Source of the DNA: Tubulanus polymorphus | Taxonomy: Eukaryota; Nemertea; Palaeonemertea; Tubulaniformes; Tubulanidae | Length of the DNA stretch: 64,000 bases | Assembly: GCF_964204645.1 (NCBI RefSeq) | Contig: NC_134030.1 | Coordinates: 4,958,278-5,022,277, forward strand | Direction: 5' to 3' | In this document: positions 1 to 47,400 of the stretch, one piece after another | How the letters are laid out: every line of letters begins with the position of its first letter | Position numbering within the stretch: the stretch's first letter is position 1 | Made by a program: the position numbers and the translations under genes | The notes under the pieces: generated by a model | What the model saw: the letters and a program-made list of their open reading frames with translations, nothing else | Told to the model about the DNA's origin: nothing | The model's database searches: none

Positions 1-3000
1 TTTTTAAATGATACAAAAATACTAAGTGTTACACATGATTTTCGAGTGCCTTTGTTAGATGGAAGACTTCGCTGCGAAATTACAAGCTGATCTCAGCTCT
101 TCATCCAAATGGAGTGTACTTCATGTGGCAAAGTGCTAACCATGTCGCCATTTAGAGTAACAACACCAAAATCACCGATAAAAGATAATACTTAATGCTG
201 AACAAATGAAAAGAGATATTCTAATACATTTTTTCATCGCCAGAAAATTTCAAATGTACGAATCCGTACGGCCGTGGCCACATTTTTCCATGCTCTCTTT
301 CTTGTTAATGGATAGATATCATGATGTGGTTCTGGTTCTTGGGGTCCTCATAGATGTGTATTCTATCTAAACCTTGACGTTGCATTCCCGTTTCGCTTTG
401 GTGACGCTTTGATTTACCCTGTAGGATAAACCGGAGGTTAAATAATGTATTGACTTATCACACGGTACCACTAACTAATAAAGCAATAATTAGATAATCA
501 TCACTTCACGACAAGGAGATCTTGGGCTACATTCACTGGCGAGCGACGAATAATTTTCGACCAGACTACTCTATCATTTTTGTGTCATTTCTTGCCGGCG
601 CTAGTCTGGCGCTAATTGAATAAGGTCACTTTCGAACAAAAGATAAGTACAGGGTCCAGACTCAGCCCGTCAAACGCAATTTGTGTCCAGGCAGACGACC
701 AGGTAGTTATCACAGTCGCGCAGTCAGTCGCACCGTCAGTTAGTCTGGGATGTTGTTTCTTTTTTAAATGACAACACAAAGCTCCATATCGAAAGAAAAG
801 TTATAAGTGAAGAAAAATAGCGTCTACGTATTTTTTTGCGTCGGAAGTTCATATGAAAATATTATATATGAAAATCGTGAGCTAAATGATATTGACTTGA
901 GAAACAAAGTCTTACGTACAACGCGGGCAGACGTCTGATTTTCCATTTGAATGAATAAATTGTCAATGTTTCGTGTAATCTTCGCTGTAATCAAAGTAAA
1001 GTCAAGTTATTTTGCTCGAGAACAAAAGAAAAGTCATGTTTTGGCAGCCAAGATGACACGACGATCCGATTGTCGCAATCCCGAGGGTTTTAACTAAGAT
1101 TTGTCAATGCTGCGACGACCAACGGTCGACGACACCGCCGATTAAGACAAACGGCTACGCATTATTTTCCGCCGCCGAACGGAAATCTGTTGTTCTTTTC
1201 ACTTTCCCTAATGTCGACATCTTGTCACGCACAAAGAAACGATCTATACACAGCGCGGTCGCGGTGACTCAAAACGTGCGTGGCTGGCGGGCTGGCGGGC
1301 TCGACGAGGTGATTGATGTGTTTTCACGAATAGTTGCTCGGCAACCAATGCGAATGTCCTTTGTTTTGTCGGCGTAAAAAGAACGAGTGAAGCGATATTT
1401 CAAAATTTCTCGGAGCACACCACATGCGAAGAGATGAGCTAATTAAAATTTGTGGCGCACGGAAATGACAGCGCTGTGAGAAAAACACGGCTTTAATCAG
1501 AGTAACGTAGTTAGAGACATAATACTTGTCTCCATACCACAACGTGGTAATTAATCAAAAGGCTCCAAATGATAGAAGAAATTGAACAGAACGTGTTGTG
1601 GCCACTGTGGGATGAAGAGCATCATCAAGCCCCCCCCCCCCCCAAAAAAAAAAAAAACCCGGAAATTCAGTTTACAATATATTTCATCATCGATGATTTA
1701 ATGCAAGCGCCGCAATATACTGAGATCGTACAATATGCGAATCTGGATGGTTACTTGAAATATTCAACGTTATATCAAGGTTCTTATTTCACTTCCACAG
1801 CTATTTACCTCAATTGAATTAACCCGTATTTTAAAAACTACGAAACGACCTTATATTATCCAAACGTGCGTATGACATAACTGCTGTATTGTAATATTCA
1901 TATAGGAACAGGAAAGCTCTCAAATGAAATATTCAGGTATTTTCCAGAACGTTTCCCCTCTCTCTCTCTCTTTATCAAGAATTCACTGAAAAACATCCCA
2001 GTTTTTCCATCGGTTTTATCACCATGGTAACTCGCAGCAATGGTGAGGACGGCGATGGAGTATAGTGAGTCACCTTACCGACGTTCGATATATTAATTTC
2101 TTTTCACGAGATGTTCGTCAGACGATAAAAAATATTCACGGCAGTCCGCACTATGAATTGACATCGCTGCGCGGTGCATGTGTGTGTATTACGCTCTTGT
2201 AGAAAATCGTGAGTTATTCGTGATAAAATATATTCGGATTGTTGATCTTGAAATAGGGAATTTCCCTCTCCTGATTGATTGATTTCGATTTAATTTGATT
2301 TTGAACCTTACCAACCCAGCAGCACACCTGCCAGGAACGAAACAGGAGGGATGATTAGTCGAATTTACTTCTTTTTTTAAATCGAGGTATTAATTGAAGA
2401 TTTCGGTTCCAGCCGGTGTAAATAAACTTCCAATCAGCCTTAACAGGCAAGCCACACTGATTTTGGTTAATTATTGACTGTCTATATAATACGATGAAAG
2501 AGGCAGGTTTGAAGCATCATATCAGCGCAACAAACTGTCGAAACTGTATCTCTAACTGCCCCGAGACTATTGAAATAATCTGGGTAGTCTTCAAGGTGCA
2601 TTATAGCTAAACAATTAACTATGTACCTGCAAGGTTTCAGTTTATTATTTCCTTCGAGCATTTCTCCAAATATAATACATTCATTGTTTTGTTGCGACGT
2701 TTATCGAAGGGAAATTCTAAGCGTTTATTGATAATACATATAACTTTTTTTGCATTAAAATGGAGAAACGGTGAAAGAAGAAGTTTCGTCTCGGGGGTAT
2801 TTTAAGTGCATTAGCAAAATCGATCAAAATATTCGATACAAAAGAAAGACTATTACCAGTTCAAACGGTTTTTTTTTCATCGGGGTGCAAAATACCGATA
2901 AAAATAAACATGTCGGAGCAGAATCGATGGAAAATATCAAATTTTGAAATGATAGAAATTGATTTTTCAATAATCATTCCACCGTACTACCCGAAGGGGA

Positions 3001-32115: not shown

Positions 32116-33786
32116 AGAAAATGAAAACTTTGCATTTTATAGACGAAATGTCGAAAGTTACTGAACTCGATTGCCGGTTTACTATACACTGAAAATAAAG
32201 TTAAGAACATGTTAACAATCTAAATTTATCAATGATATCAATAAATTGAAGCATTAAATGCATAGAACGGAACTCAAATCAAATTGATTTCAAAGCATTT
32301 GATTGAGTTCTGATTGAGTTGGCTCATTGTCTGGTGTTCTCGGCATGTGGCTGGCGACGGAGAGCTGAAAAGCTTTCGAACATTAGTTTTGTTCCATACC
32401 AGGTTTTCATCGCTCTTCTCTTTTTTCTTCATTTCAGGACTCCCAAGAAGTTGAAGAAGAAGATGCTAGAAGGTGACAACAGAAGATGGCGAAAAAAATA
32501 CTGAACTCGGCAATCTTGAAAGTTAAGTTGATACCCATGTAAATTAGGATTAATGATGAAGAAATGTGTGACTACAAAATGTTTTTCTTTTACGCAATTT
32601 CAGCTTCGACGAAGCCCAAGAAGACAAAGAAGTACTTCGATTTTGAGAAAAGATTAAGTAAAATCGACCGACGATCACACAACTATATCTGTACTTCGAT
32701 TTCGAGAAAAAAAATTAGACAAAATTATCTTCAACCTTGTAAACTTTCGGACTACTTATATGAAAAAAAGACCAAATATTGTAAAATTATCGAAAAAAAT
32801 GATGTAAAATCGACCGACGATCACACAACTATATCTGTACTTCGATTCCCACCTGTTTCGCTCCTGGCAGGTGTGTCATGATCGTAAGGGACACCAACTC
32901 AAAAAGTCAAACGAGAGCTCATCATCTAAGATCTGCCGATTAGAGAACAGTGCGCAGAAGGGGCCAATTTGGATGAAACTCAACCAACCAACTTAAGAGA
33001 TCCTCCGATAATGAACCCAGCCATCATAAAAGGTAATTTGATATTTGATACAAACTTGGAACATTTTAACCGATACTGAACCCAGCAAACTTGAAATGTA
33101 AGTTGATTTTTGGCGAACCGTAGGTTTGCCTATGCAAATGGTCTGGAGAAGCAGTTTTCATTGAAAATGAATAGAGTACCGGTGTGTCAACAAGGCACAA
33201 ACATTGGCTGTTGAACCAATACTGTTGATTTTTGGTGTCATGGTTTGTCTTATAATGAGTTCTCGAGCCCACAAAAATTTCATAGTGATCAAATTATTTT
33301 AAGGGGACTTATTCTTGAAAAACACGTAAAAACCCTGCTTTTTAGCACTAATGGCACGTTTTCATATATGAGAATTTGCATACTTGGAATTGAAATATAT
33401 ATAAGTTCAATCCTTCCTGGAAGTGTTGCCGTTTTTTTTGCGACTCATCTCGATGTACTTTTCGACCTACGGGTCCTCACTTTACGAACCCCCAAAATTT
33501 TCTCGCTTCTATTTATCTGAGTTGACCTTGTTACCTGAGCTACATTGAATGTGATTGGCTGTTTGTTGGATATACCGAAAATTCCGGGAACTTCTGATGT
33601 AATTGGGAAAGCCCATTGGGAAAACGCAATGTGGAACCCAAAACAAAATGGCGAGCATTTCATTCGACTAGGTATCGGATGTTCGCTTATAATTTGTTCG
33701 GTGTTACGAATATAACCGAGTAGGCTATTCTAGGTATATTATTTATGGAAATTATTATGATAAATTCTAAATGAAATATTTTGTCA
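32116..33786. other. No supported gene; ancestral relatives of the downstream array
   Basis: Several segments look like orphan exons: after an acceptor at about 32437 (TTCATTTCAG), at about 32602 (GCAATTTCAG), and a segment ending at about 33031 with ATCATAAAAG followed by gtaatttgat. The last is a diverged relative of the 237-bp array unit. No continuous reading frame links them. Confidence 0.4.
32680..32847. repeat. Exact 42-bp direct repeat, 126 bp apart
   Basis: The 42 bases at 32680-32721 (starting AAAATCGACCGACGATCACA) recur exactly at 32806-32847. Exactness over 42 bases in otherwise diverged surroundings suggests a recent local duplication. Confidence 0.85.
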
Positions 33787-33789
33787 TTG

Positions 33790-36730
33790 CAGGATATCTT
33801 CTTTTAATCATTGCAGCTAAATTTCAACTATGCGAAAAACCCAGCTTGAGATCAACTACTCGTCAAAAATCGACCAACTGGAACAGTGCACAGATGAGGC
33901 CAACAGAATCGAACTCATTAACCCACCAACTAATAAGATAATCGCCGATAACGAACCCAACAATTATAAAAGGTAACTTGATATACATGAAATTATTACG
34001 ATTTATTCTTATTGAAATATTTTGTCATTACAGGATATCTTCTTTGCAGCTAAATTTCAACTATAAGAAAAAACTCAGCTTGAGAACAACTACTCGTCCA
34101 AAATCCACCAACTTGAACAGCGAACAGATGAGGCCAACAGAATCGAACTCATTAACCCAACAACTTTAGATGATCCACACCGATAACGAACCAAGCAATC
34201 ATAAAAGGTTACTTGATATACATGAAATTATAACGATTAATTATTATTGAAATATTTTGTCATTACAGGATATCATCTTTTAATCATTGCAGCTAAATTT
34301 CAACTATGCGAAAAAACCCAGTTTGAGATTAACTACTCGTCAAAAATCGACCAACTTGAACAGCACACAGCCAACTAGGATCCAACTCATTAACCCACCA
34401 ACTTTAGATGATCCACACCGATAATGAACCCAGTAATCATAAAAGGTAACTTGATATACATGAAATTATTACGATTTATTCTTATTGAAATATTTTGTCA
34501 TTACGGGATATCTTCTTTTAATCATTGCAGCTAAATTTGAACTATAAGAAGAAAGCCAGCTTGAGAACAACTACTCGTCCAAAATCGACCAACTTGAACG
34601 GCGCACAGCCAACTAGAATCGAACTCATAACCAAACAACTAACAAGATAATCACCGATAACGAAACCTGCAATCAGGTAACTTGATATACATGGAATTAT
34701 TACAATTAATTCTTATTGAAATATTTTGTCATTACAGGATATCTTCTTTTAATCATTGCAGCTAAATTTCAACTATAAGAAAAAACCCAGCTTGAGAACA
34801 ACTACTCGTCCAAAATCCACCAACTTGAACAGCGAACAGATGAGGCCAACAGGATCGAACTCATTAACCCAACAACTTTAGATGATCCACACCGATAACG
34901 AACCAAGCAATCATAAAAGGTTACTTGATATACATGAAATTATAACGATTAATTATTATTGAAATATTTTGTCATTACAGGATATCTTCTTTAATCATTG
35001 CAGCTAAATTTGAAATATAAGAAGAAAGCCAGCTTGAGAACAACTACTCGTCAAAAATCGACCAACTTGAACGGCGCACAGCCAACTAGAATCAAACTCA
35101 TAATCAACCAACTAACAAGATAATCACCGATAACGAAACCAGCAATCATAAAAGGTAACTTGATATACATGGAATTATTACGATTAATTCTTATTGAAAT
35201 ATTTTGTCATTACAGGATATCTTCTTTTAATTATTGCAGCTAAATTTCAACTATGCAAAAAAACCCAGTTTAGAACAACTACTCGTCAAAAATCGACCAA
35301 CTTGAACAGTGAACAGATGAGGCCAACGAATCGAACTCATTAACCCAACAACTTTAGATGATCCACACCGATAATGAACCAAGCAATCATAAAAGGTAAC
35401 TTGATATACATGAAATTATAACGATTAATTATTATTGAAATATTTTGTCATTACAGGATATCATCTTTTAATCATTGCAGCTAAATTTCAACTATGCGAA
35501 AAAACCCAGTTTGAGATTAACTACTCGTCAAAAATCGACCAACTTGAACAGCACACAGCCAACTAGGATCCAACTCATTAACCCACCAACTTTAGATGAT
35601 CCACACCGATAATGAACCCAGTAATCATAAAAGGTAACTTGATATACATGAAATTATTACGATTTATTCTTATTGAAATATTTTGTCATTACGGGATATC
35701 TTCTTTTAATCATTGCAGCTAAATTTGAACTATAAGAAGAAAGCCAGCTTGAGAACAACTACTCGTCCAAAATCGACCAACTTGAACGGCGCACAGCCAA
35801 CTAGAATCGAACTCATAACCAAACAACTAACAAGATAATCACCGATAACGAAACCTGCAATCAGGTAACTTGATATACATGGAATTATTACAATTAATTC
35901 TTATTGAAATATTTTGTCATTACAGGATATCTTCTTTTAATCATTGCAGCTAAATTTCAACTATAAGAAAAAACCCAGCTTGAGAACAACTACTCGTCCA
36001 AAATCCACCAACTTGAACAGCGAACAGATGGGGCCAACAGGATCGAACTCATTAACCCAACAACTTTAGATGATCCACACCGATAACGAACCAAGCAATC
36101 ATAAAAGGTTACTTGATATACATGAAATTATAACGATTAATTATTATTGAAATATTTTGTCATTACTATACAGGATATCTTCTTTAATCATTGCAGCTAA
36201 ATTTGAAATATAAGAAGAAAGCCAGCTTGAGAACAACTACTCGTCAAAAATCGACCAACTTGAACGGCGCACAGCCAACTAGAATCAAACTCATAACCAA
36301 CCAACTAACAAGATAATCACCGATAACGAAACCAGCAATCATAAAAGGTAACTTGATATACATGGAATTATTACGATTAATTCTTATTGAAATATTTTGT
36401 CATTACAGGATATCTTCTTTTAATTATTGCAGCTAAATTTCAACTATGCAAAAAAACCCAGTTTAGAACAACTACTCGTCAAAAATCGACCAACTTGAAC
36501 AGTGAACAGATGAGGCCAACGAATCGAACTCATTAACCCAACAACTTTAGATGATCCACACCGATAATGAACCAAGCAATCATAAAAGGTAACTTGATAT
36601 ACATGAAATGATTACGATTAATTCTTATTGAAATATTTTGTCATTATAGCATATCTTCTTTTAATTATTGCAGCTAAATATCAACTATGAGAAAAAACCC
36701 AGCTTGAGATCAACTACTCATCAGAAAATC
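33790..36730 (+). repeat. Tandem array of a ~237-bp unit, 12 units, with a duplicated five-unit higher-order block
   Basis: The junction word AAAGGTAACTTGATATACAT starts units at about 33972, 34207, 34445, 34676, 34919, 35154, 35395, 35633, 35864, 36107, 36347 and 36588. Spacings of 235, 238, 231, 243, 235, 241, 238, 231, 243, 240 and 241 repeat with period five. The block 34207-35394 (1188 bp) is copied at 35395-36587 (1193 bp) with only about four differences noticed, one a 5-bp insertion near 36168. Each unit keeps a splice-acceptor-like TTTTAATCATTGCAG before CTAAATTTCAACTAT and a donor-like AAAAG/gtaact about 155 bases later, so each looks like one exon plus one intron. Frames are not conserved between units and stops occur in all, so protein coding is unlikely. 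Confidence 0.9.
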
Positions 36731-36869
36731 TACAAGTAGATGAATACTGATTGACCCATTTGCTGATGAAAACTGCAGAAGCCCAGATTAGAAGTTTAGG
36801 AGCCAGCGACGGATTAATCACTCAACGATGGATTCTTCTACAAACGGTGTTTGATTTCTATAAAATATT

Positions 36870-37375
36870 TTATCAGGATCAGCAGAGACTATAGTGAATC
36901 TTATAAACACTGATTCGAGCGACAAAGCTAATGGATTATCTCATAAACACTGATTTAGGATAAGCACTATTTTAAAAGCAGTAAAGACAATAGGGTATCT
37001 TATTAGGAGCAGCATAAACAATAGTGCATCTCAGTGGCGGATTTAGCCTACCGCACTTGCCGCTAATGCGGTAGTCAACATTTTTCCTCTAACAACATTT
37101 TATTTATTTCATGGATGGACTTGACTTAGCTGATTCCTTGGAAAAAAGTACCCATATTAAAACAGGATTTTTCTCTCCCAAAACCCAGGAAATGTCATCT
37201 CAGCCCTTTAAATTTTTCAAAATTATCCGGGGGAGGACCCCCAAACCTCCCGTAGGCACGTCGTGCCTTCGGCACTCGTATTGCACATCTCGTGTCTTCG
37301 GCATATTATGCCTCTGGATCCGCCACTGCATCTTATAAACACTGAGATCCAGGAGCGGCAAAGACAATAGTGGAT
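36870..37375. repeat. Degenerate ~50-60-bp tandem repeat interrupted by a MITE
   Basis: Words such as ATAGTGAATCTTATAAACAC TGA, ACTATTTTAAAAGCAGTAAA GACAATAGGG and GAGCAGCATAAACAATAG recur about five times. The array continues on the right of the insert (CATCTTATAAACACTGAG, GGCAAAGACAATAGTGG), which shows that the MITE at 37032 inserted into an existing array. Confidence 0.65.
37032..37328. mobile_element. MITE with CAGTGGCGGAT inverted repeats and CATCT target duplication
   Basis: The 297-base element begins CAGTGGCGGATTTAGCCTAC and ends GGATCCGCCACTG. CATCT flanks it on both sides. Removing the element and one CATCT gives TAGTGCATCTTATAAACACT, which matches a neighbouring repeat unit (TAGTGAATCTTATAAACACT), so the empty site is visible in the sequence itself. 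The interior has the short inverted words GGCACGTCGTGCC and CTTCGGCA. The ORF inside (37111-37338) has no family resemblance. Confidence 0.85.
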
Positions 37376-38401
37376 TTCTGTAGTAAAGTATTGATTTTTT
37401 TACTTATCACCCTTTTTCAAACCAGTCTGATATAGTGTTTTCAAGGAAATTATTTTATATTGTTCAATGCAATGTGAGAGTCTAATAAAAGCTAAGCACC
37501 ATTAATTCACGATATTGGTCTTCGATCCTTGGTTGATAGAGAAGTCAAGTTAGGTTAGTCACTAGGGGTCAATGGTCGCATTGAGCGCCTAGTTTGAACT
37601 CGTAGGTCTGTTGAGTTAACTCCTAAACTGAGATATAGTTTCAACATGATATTGTGAGTTCAATCTTTAAACTTTACCATAGTAAAACATAGTCAACTAT
37701 GGCTATTTGTCCGTGTAGGTATCACATAGTTAGGAAACATAGAACATAATGTTAGGCCAGTGTTGATGTAGAAATATTAAGTATTTGCTGAATTGTAGAT
37801 GTATTGATTTGATAGATATATATTTTCGAAGGCCCATGTAACTGATTTCACAATTGAATCGTATATGTCGATTTTCACATCGAGTTTTAACTTAGGTTGG
37901 AGACTGTTATTGTAACACAGTTCGCCTGTTTGGAAATTAAGAACTTGCGTGATGATTCCTCGATTGAGATATTATTTGTGAATAAAACGATGTACATTTT
38001 CATCATTCATGTTGAAACTTTTAAGTTGTTAATTTTTATAGCGACAATTCCACTGTGGTGCTTTTCAGTGGTTCATAAAATACTGATTTAATTAAGGCCT
38101 TTTCAAAAATAGCAGGAGCATAGAATAGAAGCAGCAGTTTCTTGATAACTTGAGGATATAGTGCTAATTGGTCAATTGTCCTAGCTTTGTTTTGATTACC
38201 AGTTTAACCGCGTCTGTGTGGGGCCTGTAATATCTGGACAAGAAGAATTTCTGATCTTTATATAGAGTTGTATTTATATCTACTATCAAGTTGAATTATA
38301 CAATTAAGAAGTTACTGTAGCTTCGTCAGTCAAACCATATTTATGTGAAGATACTCGATTTATCTTGAATTATCACGAAGAAAAACCTTTATAATAGTTT
38401 G

Positions 38402-38659
38402 CAGGGTTTGATCTAAGGAATTAATGCCACTAGACCTTGGGGCAAGCATATGTAATATCACTTGCCCCCTCAAAAATCAACTTGCCCTACATGAGCAGTC
38501 CGATTGTGACACAATCATCCCTTGCATCTAGTGGGTTAAAAGCTTTGAGACATAGAATTACACAAGCCCGGTGGTAGACGAGTGATTGTGATAACCTACA
38601 TGCCCTAATGAAAATATACTTGTCCCGGGCAATTGGATTAGTGCTTAAATCAGACCCTG
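38402..38659. mobile_element. hAT-like MITE (CAGGG ends)
   Basis: The left end CAGGGTTTGATCTAAGGAAT and the right end GTGCTTAAATCAGACCCTG are imperfect inverted repeats of about 25 bases starting with CAGGG, common for hAT elements. CTTGCCC words recur inside. No clear 8-bp duplication was found. The element lies within the diverged long-period repeat. Confidence 0.6.
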
Positions 38660-39925
38660 CTTTGTTTCAAATGTAACATTTGTGAAATAATTAAAGAAAT
38701 CTCTCAGACGAGGAAATTTTTGGCAATGTTTTTACAGTTTTCTTGTAATAACTAAGATTAATTAGTTTACCTAACGCTTTCCAGAGTGAGTGAATTTGTA
38801 GGTTTTATGTTGAACTGTTTTTTAAATAACTCATTTAGCAGGGTATAATTGTTGTGTAAGAATAAAATGATATACATGTTTCGTCATTCATACTGAGGTG
38901 CTCATCAATGGTTCATAAAATACTATTTTCATAAAGGCCATTATGGAAAATAGAGTAGCAAAATAGAGGAGCATTCTCTTGATAAATGAGGATATATGAA
39001 CAGTATTAATCAGTAGATTTTGCTAGCTATGGACTCTAAAACCATGGTTTAACAATGTCTATATGGGTTCTGAAATATCTGCACAAGAAGCACCTCAAAA
39101 AGTTAGTTATTGAATCTTAACTTAATTGAAGCAAAGCCATTAGTTATTAGTAATTGCCCTAGCTCTATTCAAATTGACAGTTGAACAATATTTATATACT
39201 CGATTTATATACTCTTGTTGAATGCATGGAAGAGAAAACCTCCAAAATACTATATTTATAACAGTTATAATGTTTTTATGTTGGAGATATTTTTGAAATA
39301 CAGGTCACGTTTTTGTAAATGACTGAGGAACTTCCTCCAGTACTGTCATTAAGGTATAATTCTTGTTATAGAGATAAAACGACATGTTGATGTCAATTGT
39401 TCATAAAACATTGATTTATTAAGGTCCTATCGAATAAAGTTGAGCTTTTTCTTGATAAATGAGATGTCCTCAATCGATGTCATTTGAAAAGTTGACATTA
39501 TAGATTCATATTTCATGAAATATAACAATTAGTGTTGGTTATATTCACCTCATGAATTGTCAAATTCATAATCTTAGTCTTTCAGACTAGTCCAATTTTC
39601 GTTTTTTTTTGGATCAAATTTATAATTCTTTGTGTATTTTTGTTATTTTTCTATTGATGCAAATTGTATAAATCAGCTGTAGTGGAAAATGTATCGTAAA
39701 GACTTCTAAATACCTTACATGTAACTTTGTTTTAAGTTAGTACAATTTCATACATAGTAATAGAAATGAAATTGCTTTTAAAATTTGAGAAAATAAGCTA
39801 ATAATTTGACATGTGAAAATAAAATGATGTAAGAATGTAAATCAGATTGATTACTTAATCCTACGCTTTCCAGAGTATTTGGCCAGGTTTATCTCTGGTT
39901 TTAGTGCGGGGAGCCATGGTTTGGG

Positions 39926-40003
39926 CCATAGACTTTTTTGTTTTAGAGTCTATGGTTGGACCATGGGCGTATAAACTCTCGTTTATAGTTTATACACCCA
40001 TGG
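39926..40003. repeat. Two adjacent hairpins
   Basis: The first is CCATAGACT paired with AGTCTATGG (39926-39955). The second is CCATGGGCGTATAAAC paired with GTTTATACACCCATGG with one mismatch (39961-40003). They are only five bases apart and could be parts of one larger foldback element. Confidence 0.7.
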
Positions 40004-40424
40004 TGGTTGGACTAGTTGTTTTTGAAAGTCCACGTGTTTGAGGAGCGTACGTTATAATTTCTCGAGCACAAACCTGGCATTTTGTAAAATTGTTGTATGA
40101 GAATAAATATGATTGATTTTGAAATTTGTCATTCGTTTATTTAAGCAACAAGTGTTACTAAAATGAAGCACTACTAAAAACCAAGACTATATGCACCCGA
40201 GAAAACCGACCAATTTACGTTTGCGGCAGTGGTGGTACAGAGCGCCTCAAGTGATGATTTCGAGTATCTTCGGACTTCTTTTTAGTCATGCATAGTTTTA
40301 ATACCTCAAAGTGCATAGCTCTTCGTTTTAGTAGCGCCTAGTTTTTAGTAACACTCCCATTTCACTGACCAGCTATAAAATTAACTGCTTCTCACGGGCC
40401 AGCCGTGAATCATTTTCATGAACC

Positions 40425-40586
40425 CAGGGCCGCCTTCGGTTATCTGAGTTAGTCGACTATAGTCGAACTAAACGAAACCGAATGTCAGTTAGTCCGGAAC
40501 TATATTCCATGAACGAAATCAAGCACCTTCGGTTATTAGTTCCGACCACGAGTCGACTCTAGATATGACAACCGAATTTGGCCCTG
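40425..40586. mobile_element. Short hAT-like MITE (CAGGGCC ends)
   Basis: The left end CAGGGCCGCCTTCGGTTATC pairs with the right end GACAACCGAATTTGGCCCTG with four mismatches over 20 bases. The interior repeats AGTCGACTATAGTCGAAC. No ORF and no clear target duplication. Confidence 0.65.
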
Positions 40587-41477
40587 GCAGTTGAATCGGT
40601 TGCTGCTCCCCGAAGCATTTTGATCTAAGCATCAAATCATTAGAGTGGAGAATATTTCGTATCAAAATATTAAACAGTCTCCCTCTTCAATGACTGTTCC
40701 TAAGTTTTACGAATCGAGGCATAAAATGAAATTCCTCATTAAGAAGGTATGAAAATATGTTTTTTCAATGATTTCCCAATCGTTCTTGGTGGTTTTGTAA
40801 GTATTGGAAAATACGAAATGTACTACCAACATTTTTCCTAGGTGATGAAAGGCCATGTCGACATGATTATTGGATCCTAGGTAAAAAAAGGCCATGTAGA
40901 TTAAATATCTTGAAAATGTTGTGAAAATGAAATATAATATAGATGTAAGAGATTTTTGATAAGAAGGCTGTTCAAAGTCCCACAATAGAAAAACTGAAAA
41001 GTTGAAATATTCACGAAGGAATGAACCGAAAATTTCGGAATATTTGAATGAATTTTTTCGATATTTTAACCTTTCGGTTTTTTATTCTGGGACTTGGACT
41101 TAATTCAACAAGTTCTATCTCGTCGGTCTCTGTCTGGACAGTCGTTTCCTCCATGCCACTGCATCAATGATAGTCAGGCAGTTTTATAGTTGAAGTACCG
41201 GTACCGGTATTTGCGTTATTAACTTTCATTGATTTGTTTCACGAACATTCCTCCATCATGCAATTAACATCGTCTGGTTGGCCATGCTGTTGTCAAGGTT
41301 ACTGCCTCTTATCTCACTACAGTAATACCAGGCAATGCAGGTATAATGGCTTGATTAATTAAGTATAAATTCAACAGATCGAATAGAATGGAACTGCAGC
41401 TATTGAAACAGTGGTGATTTTACATGCAATTGGATATAAATTCAGTCATAGGAGATTAGCTACTGCAGATACTTCCT

Positions 41478-44400
41478 ATGTTCAGATATTATTTCCTGAG
41501 ATGTGCATTCAATGTAGTAGAATTGTGGACTAGATTTGTTTTACTTACAGTCTATTTTAATGTCATTGAATCTGGCGTAAGATTCACTTATGTGTCACCA
41601 GATATAACAACTTATCAAGGAAACAATGTCACTCTAAGATGTCAAGTTACAGGCTCTGTTTTGCACTCTATCAATTGGACCAAGGTACTGTATACCCTTC
41701 GATTTGACTAATTCTTTATCTTTTGAAAATGTCAACCAAAAAAGGCCATTTTAAAGGTTTTAGCCTTGTATGTACATAACATGGTAAAGCAAAGGATGTT
41801 TTATTAATTCAAAGGTTCACGGGTCATTGCCTGAGTCAAGATTGATCTACCAGTACTCTGGAGAGCTCATTTTGAGAGATGTTGTGTCTGAGGACTCGGG
41901 GACGTATATTTGTTCATTTGGAAGTTTGATTGATCGTATTGGGCTTACTGTTCAGTGTATGTATATTCATGCTAGCATTAGATTGAAGCCCTAATTCAAT
42001 TAGTTCCCTGTAAATCCTGACTTAAGTTGAATGGCTGATTGATGATAATGTTTCTGTAAAGTTAACTTGAACACAAATCTTGAAACCATTCCAACAGACT
42101 GTGAATTAGATTTCACTTGGAATATCGCCTGAATATTTGTTTCTTCGGTTACAGCACCTCCATGGATAACAACTCATTCTGATTCAACCGCTGTCATACT
42201 TGGTCAACCAGTTACATTAAAATGCTCAGTCACAGGTTACCCTTACCCAACAGTAACATGGCATACACCAACATCAGGTACTGATCAAGATCTCATAATC
42301 GATGCATTCTGCCATAATAATCACCTTTAATCATAATGCTGTTGCTAAGTAGAAGTATTTTTTATGACTAATAGAGCAAATGAAAGCTGGAGAATTTCTA
42401 GATGGTATTTTTATTCAACCAAGCAATACACTTTATATAAACACCACAACAGATGAACACCATGGAAACTATAGATGTATAGCTACAAACATTGTAGCCA
42501 CAGTTACTGCCTCGACAATGGTTTCAGTACAAAGTACGTTTCTAGATAAAAACTTTTTGTGAAATACTTTTTGCTGACCGCAAATAATTGCTAGCGATTG
42601 TTCTTTAGTGCCACCAGTGATTGAAATGAAATCCTCCCATGTCAAGATTATTCAAGGGTCAGTATTGAAGTTACCTTGTCAGGTATCTGGACGACCATCT
42701 CCAGTGATTTCCTGGTACTTAAACGGATTGCATATTCAACAAACTGATAACAGATTATATATTCTCGGGTAAGCTTCAGGATTCCTCTCACAAAACATTA
42801 AGAACTACTGATTGACACTTCGGCCATCAACTATGATTTATAATTAGAAAAGCTTGAGCTTTCATTCATACTGTTGTTTTTTACAGAGATGGTGTATTAA
42901 TCATTAGAGAAGTGTTCATGAGTGATGCCGGGACATATACCTGCATAGCTAGAAATATTCTCAATCAAACCTCGGCCAAAATTGAAGTTTCTGTTATTCG
43001 TGAGTATACTTTTGAAATTCCAGTTCAACTAAATGTTGTATTCTGTAATCAGTTCAATTATGATTTCATTTCAGCTAAACCAGCATATCTCATAAAACCT
43101 CATGATCGAGTTGTTCAACTGGGTCAGTCCCTCTTACTCAATTGTCTCGCAACGAATGAGCCCAATAACAACGTCAGCTATGTTTGGAAAAAAGATGCAG
43201 TTTTACTCCAGCAAGGTCTGTTAGATGTCTGAGAGCTGGGTGATAATTCTTTATTCATTGAAAATCTCTCTCAAAATTTATTATGATTTTGCAGACGATA
43301 ATCTGAAGATTTTCGGTAATAATTCAGTTTTCATTGGTCAGATATCTATATTTGATTTGGGTGTGTATGAGTGTAACTTACACAGTGAGACTGCAGTGAT
43401 TAGATCACGAGCGAGCATTTATTTAAGAGGTTAGACGAAATTTTGCCAATATTTTGTGTTTGAAATATCATTCTTGAATTTTTGATTATGTATTAAATCC
43501 ATTTTCAGATGCTCCATCAATGGTTGTTTCTCCTAGCAACCTAACTGTCCCTGTGAATGGCTCTGCGTTGTTCAAGTGCCGGTCGACATCGAAGGAACAG
43601 ATATCTATAAATTGGTTCACATGCGACTCCCCCATTAGAGTGTTAGGTGAAGGTATCAAGTTGCCGGGTGGAAAGTCGAGTGCTGTAGTTTCGGCATTAG
43701 GAGACTTGTATATTCAGGTGAGTGATCCTGTTATTGGGCTGCGGCTGTGGAAGTAAGGCTACGCTGGTCTGATGCACTGATTTATTTTTCTGATCAATTG
43801 AATACGATATTTTCCTCATTCCAGAGAACTACCGTTGTAGACTCTGGTTGTTATAAGTGTCAAGTTAAAAGTGTCTTCAACTCTTCTTTTAAGACAGTTA
43901 GCCTCAGTGTACAAGGTGAGTCTTTATTCATCATCTGCAAAATATCACTGTCTATCAGATTTTGTTTACTGATAGTATAAGAAACCTATGAGATCAGTAT
44001 TTTATGCGTCTCTTGTAGTTCCACCATCATTGGTGAAAACCAATTCACCCGTGGTTGTTCTGGAGAACAGTAGTGCCACCTTGGAGTGTCAGTTTGTTTC
44101 AGATCCCGTATCTAAAGTCACGTGGTTCCACCGTCAATCTAACCGACATTTTCAATCGACCTCGCCCGGTCGTCTGCAACTAAATGATGTGACCTTGACT
44201 CAGGATTCTGGTAACTGGATGTGTATGGGTTGTAATGTAATTGGTTGTTCAGATGGCATTGTCAATCTACTCGTTAATGGTGAGTAGGCAACAAAACTAT
44301 TGTCAATGCTTCATTGTCCACATCTTCGTGTATTTCAAATGAGATAATTCCTTCCATTATAGGTCCACCGGTCTTCACCAAATCGTTGTTGCGTCCTTTA

Positions 44401-47400
44401 GGAAGTCGTATCGAAATATTCTGCTCCGGTATTGGCTATCCATTACCGACTGTTAGTTACTATGTGAACAATCATGAAGTGAATGAACGTAGTCTACCGG
44501 CAGGTTATACACTGCATGATGGTCAACTGTCTATTGAAGAAACGCTGAATAACAATACTGCCTACAAGTGTAAACTGAAGAATATATACGGGAGTGTGGA
44601 GAAAATTCTAACTAGTGAGTATGTAAGAACAATTTATGCAACTACTGAAAAATATTATATTTATGAGGTCATTCAAGGGGATTTAGTATAGATTTAGGCA
44701 GTTTTTGATTGAATGTATTCCGGTTTAGGTATTGCAATTCCGGGTTCAGGAATAGCAATTTCGGATCTTCTATCAGGTTTACAGAATATGCTATTCCGAA
44801 AGAGGTAGAGTGAATTCTGGTTGAAATGAGCATATACCATAGAGAATTCTGGAATCGGTTGAGACCAATTGAAACCTGCCTATATTTCTCCAGTGCTTGT
44901 GCTGGATCGACCTTCTTAACCCTTTCAGTGCTGACTAATTAATACCCTATAGTGCTGGAGATAATTTGAAAATTCTAAAAAATTCCACCCTAGTGTGTTA
45001 AACAACGGGTATACCACTATAGTGCGTCTACACTGCGGTGTATCGTTAGTTACTAGTATTTCACTATGTTTGACACGTGCTGCCATTTTTCAAGAGAGAT
45101 AATTACTAATTACATCAATACACCGCAGTGCGGTGTACTAGCAAAATCTATCACTGATTTATACACCGCACTGGACGCACTGAAAGGGTTAATCTAATAC
45201 AAGTATAATTTCACTACGCGGTGTATTTTCAGTGCCTTCTGCTCCGAGTTCACCAAGAAATATAACAATAATAGACGTAACATCCATCTCTGTATCGCTA
45301 AACTGGACAGAGCCATTAATAGGTGGTGACAGCGTGATTTCATATGACGTACAATACCGTGCAACTCCAGTCATCCAATCATGGTCGTCGACAGTGGCTT
45401 GGATAACCACAGTAACAGTGAATAAACTCCACCCCTACACGTTGTATTCGTTTCGTGTTCGTGCCTTTAATGGAATTGGATACGGTCTGTATTCGACATC
45501 GAATCGAGTGATGACTTTACCAGCAGCACCATCCAAACCGCGAAATCTCACGTTCGAGCTGAAAGGGTTTTCAGATGTTTTAGTTTCGTGGGAGGCACCG
45601 GTGAAATCAAATGGCAACACAGGTGATAATAGCGTAAATAGTTGAGACTATTTCCAGTCTTGATGAACATCATTGAGAAAAAACCCACAATCTCAATTCA
45701 AACAACTGTAATTAGTTTTTTCTTACAAGTTTCGGGTAGAATCCTTCGAGTGGAGCTTATTTGAAAATTATTCATTGACATACATTGTGGGCTTCTCAAT
45801 GTGATTATAGTAATTGGTGTGGCATTAGAATCCAGTTCCTTGAGATGGCAGTTGAACATGACAGTTCATTGAATCTATTTGTAGCTGATGTTATGTATGA
45901 AGTATCCTATTACCCATTAAACAATGCTGAAGCTATGATATCTGTACAGTCTGAGAGTCTGCAGGTGACGTTATTGGGTCTGAATACGTCGGCTATGTAT
46001 TCTGTTTCTGTGAGAGCTGGAAATTCACATCTGGATGTTTGGAGCCCGTATTTGACTGAAACAGTTGATCTAACACTATTAGGTTAGTGTATACCTTAAA
46101 ATCTGTTGTGTAAGACAAGTGAATATCAAGTTTTAACAAAAACGTTTCCTTCATTAATTATGAATTATTACAGTTATCTATGTATATTTGAATTGTTAGT
46201 TGACAGTTATGGATATAGGGTAATAGAATTGTGTGCATGTGTGGTAAAAGGAAACACTTATCAAACACGAATGGTGTGTTATTTCACCAGTGGAATGAAT
46301 TGTTTGCTAATTCTCTCTTTTATGTCACCATGTTGTAATATGTGAGATCAATTCATGATTTCACTGTCACTCAGATCTGTCACTTATGTATGTTTTACCA
46401 TTTCTTTAAAAACTGATTACAATTCAATGTTTTTTTAAGTATACTGACTCTACAATTATGTGTTGTATAGAAGACTGCTTGCAGTAGATCTATTAGTTTG
46501 AGCCTTCTATCATATTACAGTTGCAGCCACTACTCAACTTGTTGCTGTTACTACACAATCTGAAGTCATTAGCAAAGGAATCAAAGATGATCATCTGATA
46601 GCTATCCTGTGCTCCGTTGGATTTATGGTATTCGTCGTGGCGGCGATTTTGATTTATTTTTGCTGTCGGCGACGTAACAGATGGCATAAGATGAAAATGG
46701 AAGACGCGAAGATGAAAAACTATGACCGTAATCATATTCCAATTATAGGGGGCAGGTATGTACACACTGATACCTTGTGGTATGATGCCGTATGCAACGC
46801 ACACGTCTTCTAATTCATTTCAAACTTGAATAATCTATTTATAGCCCAGCTCATCGAATTGAATTGTCGCGAATTTCATCTCGCGGGTTCTATGATTTGA
46901 AGACGCACAAAGCCCCCAGTGTTGCAATGGCGCAGCATTCTGATGTATTTTACAGGTGATCTATTGCTTCAATTTTAATCATTACTTTAAATATCAAATG
47001 TTTGAACTCGTGATGAAACTATGTAAGTGTTTATCGTATAACAGGCCTTCGAAAGATCCGATTTTGCTGTCAACTCAACGACTGCTTAAACAGACCATTT
47101 CTCTACCACCCATCAAACGACAGTCGGTACAAACAGATTATGAATTAGGAGTGAGTTTTTCTATTTCGAATATGATACCATGTGCTAGAATTGTTGAAAC
47201 TGAGTAACAAGTTGAAAATCCCACAATAAGTCCAGACTAACTGTTCTGTTGAAATATATTTTGCAACTTGGCTATCATCTAAAGGGATCATCACACATAC
47301 TGAAACTGAGTACCCTTGCGATGCCAAATAAGTATTGATGGATTTTATAGATTGAGCTTGTAATTTTCAATTTTCAGGAAATCACTAGACACAATGACAG

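Follow-up and report, generated by a model that had tools for sequence, protein, structure and literature searches.

The window analysed here is a 64-kb stretch of DNA (C6:4958278-5022277) from a genome that we searched as 267.8 Mb on 77 contigs. It contains one copy of a dispersed repeat, hereafter the carrier, and within the span of that copy a tandem array of ~238-bp units (Table 1). Along the copy the order is a 5' part, decayed units, a nested repeat, the array and a 3' part that runs to ~40610. Downstream of the carrier copy lie Ig-like and fibronectin III exons at 42858-45645, which are probably those of a cell-surface receptor gene and point to an animal genome.

Table 1. Features at the array locus, in positions of the window
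Feature	Position	Strand	Remarks
Dispersed carrier repeat, window copy	32320-40610	+	Homology to dozens of loci
Decayed partial array units	32945-33112	+	75-82% identity to array units
Nested dispersed repeat between decayed units and array	33116-33730		33730 is the end point of many solo matches at other sites
Array of ~238-bp units	33748-36730	+	12 units plus ends; TRF, unit matrix
Five-unit higher-order block, copy 1	34224-35411	+	1188 bp; block comparison
Five-unit higher-order block, copy 2	35412-36604	+	1193 bp; block comparison
Nested MITE-like insertion	37032-37328		297 bp; TIR CAGTGGCGGATYYAG / CAGTGGCGGAT; 5-bp duplication CATCT
3' half of carrier	37329-40423	+	Lacks a long ORF; contains divergent repeat modules and several AATAAA motifs
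Terminal-inverted-repeat element	40424-40587		CCAGGGCC...GGCCCTGG; near 3' end of most copies

TRF reports a single long array in the 64-kb window, with a period of 238, 12.5 copies and a score of 4187, and together with the unit alignment matrix this bears out the twelve ~237-bp units described in an earlier note on this DNA. The extent given there holds, apart from the start, which moves to 33748 with decayed pieces of the unit lying farther upstream. The units stand head to tail with one period, and the spacings between successive unit starts are, in order, 241, 235, 238, 231, 243, 235, 241, 238, 231, 243 and 240, a series containing both runs of the pattern noticed earlier (238, 231, 243, then 235 or 240, then 241). 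Aligning all units with one another, as the earlier note had proposed, backs the five-unit block: units five apart are more alike than neighbours, with a mean identity at lag 5 of 96.2% (0.962) compared to 84-89% at other lags and 0.843 between neighbours. Only a 5-bp insertion and 2 substitutions set the second block apart from the first, in agreement with the claim that 1.19 kb had been copied almost exactly. This is a real higher-order tandem array, far beyond what chance would produce.

The array does not form a separate locus but belongs to a multicopy dispersed repeat, which the earlier note had not recognized. Homology to other loci starts sharply at 32320 and ends at 40583-40610, and the window copy is cut short on the left, where fuller copies reach at least 1.2 kb further. 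The nested repeat upstream of the array is missing from another group of copies, as a filled/empty comparison with L045 and L049 shows, and in these two copies the decayed units adjoin the array directly; in three other carrier copies the site of the MITE-like insertion is empty. The absence of these nested insertions from other copies indicates that carrier copies are discrete and evolve independently. The terminal-inverted-repeat element is also found solo elsewhere.

A representative unit gave at least 183 matches, in arrays on C5, C6, C8, C9 and C10, and the genome search for further arrays that had been suggested earlier, made with unit, flank and peptide queries, found unit arrays at about 42 loci (41 on C1-C12 and one on C55). 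Loci on different chromosomes share homologous sequence on either side of the array and differ in array length; this homology of both flanks places the array inside a dispersed repeat. The unit, the flanks and their order recur on most chromosomes. The shortest arrays have 2-3 units and the longest clusters cover ~32 kb; the carrier measures 8 to over 40 kb. Very long unit arrays, of ~17-32 kb, lie at C6:8067701-8100239, C8:9877630-9897155, C6:2591154-2609554 and C11:10388795-10406173, and repeated identical scores in several arrays of this size suggest private higher-order blocks. The 5' module of the carrier is present in more than 150 copies in the genome, and the 5' part of fuller copies contains an inverted repeat of ~225 bp that is not at a defined terminus. 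Upstream of the 5' module one subfamily has ~190-bp tandem modules (L068 1-150; C55, C4, C2, C1 and C6), and other subfamilies have unrelated sequence there. Among the best-scoring matches listed, which are not a random sample, 63 of the 146 placed 5' modules fall in the outer 20% of chromosomes, where 29 are expected, with almost none mid-chromosome and one on C12. The carrier ends, compared on a sample of copies, vary step-wise: the 5' homology starts at several points and the 3' side continues in at least two ways. In these sampled copies no terminal inverted repeats, target-site duplications or transposase were found for the carrier itself; for target-site duplications the ends were too variable. 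Since the variation affects both sides we assign no transposon class; possible identities of the carrier are an ancient, non-autonomous transposable element and a family of segmental duplications undergoing recombination.

Statistics on 162 units from 23 genome stretches give a unit identity of 0.880 within arrays versus 0.821 between arrays, and in long arrays the best match of most units falls in their own array. The array of L005 likewise has a five-unit period, with a lag-5 identity of 0.966, and in that of L004 identity is raised at lags three and ten. Spread by unequal crossover, one of the origins considered in the earlier note, fits well with the five-unit block, whose two copies are nearly identical, and with the higher-order blocks private to other arrays. 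We favor, at a probability of roughly three in four, the interpretation that the window array is a tandem repeat, variable in unit number, within a large, multicopy and apparently noncoding dispersed repeat. A carrier copy would first have inserted at this locus; misaligned units would then have undergone unequal exchange (or replication slippage or gene conversion), by which a five-unit block would have been copied to give a higher-order repeat, and the same local block duplication would act independently at other loci. Local block duplication after dispersal accounts for the array data, and from these we infer the mechanism itself. The unit may derive from a genuine exon with its intron; at present it behaves as noncoding sequence.

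This interpretation has to be weighed against readings in which the units are, or were, exons. The earlier note had placed splice-like signals at constant positions in the units. Donor-like and acceptor-like signals do occur once per unit in the window array, with AGGT kept at the donor-like site in 12/12 units and TTGCAG at the second acceptor-like site in all of them; at the first acceptor-like site the AG is broken in 2/12 units (ACGG at 34493 and 35681). Tandem repetition alone gives such constancy, and constantly spaced splice-like signals, to be expected in any tandem array, do not on their own argue for exons. If the signals were used, the carrier would be a family of spliced noncoding RNA genes, with units as exons of ~155-180 nt, introns of 60-85 nt and, at the 3' end, a long last exon that contains AATAAA signals. 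Such a family could account for the strong serial + strand acceptors in the 5' half of the carrier (32438, 32871 and the units), with few in its 3' half, and for the 10-14 + strand acceptors of at least 8 bits per copy versus 4-6 on the - strand, both seen in three copies. It would likewise suit the acceptor AG, which is kept at the first site in 150/162 units and at the second in 160/162. A donor/acceptor pair this strong, with an intron of 50-120 nt, arises in just 0.7% of tandemised random 238-bp windows, which makes the pair somewhat better than chance, although the figure is weakened because the pair was picked after being seen. On the other hand, donor GT is found in 140/162 units and is replaced by GA in 16/162, the first acceptor AG is lost in 12, and the retention of GT and AG lies within the range of other unit columns, so that splice dinucleotides are conserved no better than the rest of the unit; 'exon' columns are indeed less alike (identity 0.872) than 'intron' columns (0.937). 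Splice sites were scored with position weights that are generic metazoan values and may not fit this genome. The array contains 9 donors and 12 acceptors of at least 5 bits in 3.06 kb, equal to the window rate of 3.4 donors and 3.6 acceptors per kb, and its - strand has as many such sites as the + strand. The genome search found no spliced-junction copies, in which the end of an exon would run directly into an exon start, and Rfam gave no match in the window or in two fuller copies. We regard a noncoding RNA family as unlikely, and the broader proposal of more than 40 dispersed spliced noncoding transcription units, varying by unequal exchange in their number of near-identical exons and biased to distal chromosome regions, as distinctly improbable. 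A tRNA or SINE origin was also considered and rejected, as no tRNA was found.

The first unit, which reads ...KTQLEINYSSKIDQLEQCTDEANRIEL..., is open, as are some units elsewhere, and this would agree with a decayed family of protein-coding genes with tandem coiled-coil-like exons. Many units contain stops, however, their exon-like lengths fall 61/45/44 in the three classes modulo 3 so that frame is not kept across units, and the unit peptides have no match in Pfam. This spread, together with the greater variability of the 'exon' and the GA donors, gives no support to protein-coding exons: lengths spread over three frames and units without coding constraint count against a coding gene. The same family might be recognized in an ORF of 130-150 aa that is lacking from the window copy and starts with MLPWILL or MLTWILL in more than 100 copies of the 5' module; its hydrophobic leader (MLPWILLLAIFAAL...) is open in most 5' modules (e.g. 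L066, L068 and L078). Its pairwise dN/dS of 0.62 is barely below the 0.71 of the next frame, with 1269/990/1414 differences at the three codon positions, and Pfam yields sub-threshold membrane-like matches only. A stretch ~70-160 nt after the ATG is nearly invariant across otherwise diverged subfamilies and runs into a pyrimidine-rich, acceptor-like stretch, and the open frame may for this reason be incidental. By our impression, the tail of the ORF may be similar to the C-terminal end of reverse transcriptases from non-LTR retrotransposons. Evidence for a protein is weak at best, and some coding or RNA function of the 5' module is possible given the number of open copies and the dN/dS ratio. 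A decayed coding family appears highly improbable. The close identity of the two blocks could also reflect a false duplication of the second block in assembly; they differ, however, at the few positions given above, equivalent higher-order blocks are present in other arrays and the contig is chromosome-sized, and an artefact of this kind is extremely improbable.

Taken as an internal variable-number tandem repeat of a dispersed carrier, the array would be a clear example of a dispersed repeat that brings a satellite-like array to many sites, where local block duplication then enlarges it, and a single family would thereby show the early formation of higher-order repeats replicated independently dozens of times. 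An exon-like array outside a coding gene had been called unusual, and it corresponds rather to ordinary repeat growth, known in kind. Higher-order blocks are classic. In higher-order repeats of the alpha-satellite type near-identical multi-unit blocks, subject to unequal exchange, make up megabase centromeric arrays. The window array resembles these in having multi-unit blocks copied with near identity and departs from them in that its arrays are short and lie within a dispersed repeat. The NBPF/Olduvai units, of ~1.6 kb, lie in genes and are grouped in a repeated higher-order block (PMC9584774); the tandem units described here share this arrangement in blocks, whereas they do not keep frame. 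In the Firre lncRNA, a single locus with proven spliced RNA, local repeats (RRD) coincide with exons (PMC4820808), and in the noncoding-transcript reading the repeats would do the same, but at ~42 dispersed loci. A similar layout is that of Cg_HINE of Crassostrea gigas, a non-autonomous Helentron (DINE-1/HINE) in which monomers of 100-500 bp form a short satellite-like array between left and right modules (PMC7492417), by which satellite-like arrays in mobile or dispersed repeats are already described. The carrier differs from HINE in its size of 8 to over 40 kb, in arrays of up to ~32 kb and in its step-wise variable ends. HINE termini have subterminal inverted repeats, a 3' palindrome and a TT target without target duplication, and it is by array layout that the carrier is likened to it: in both, a satellite-like array stands between two conserved modules, is dispersed genome-wide and varies in copy number from locus to locus.
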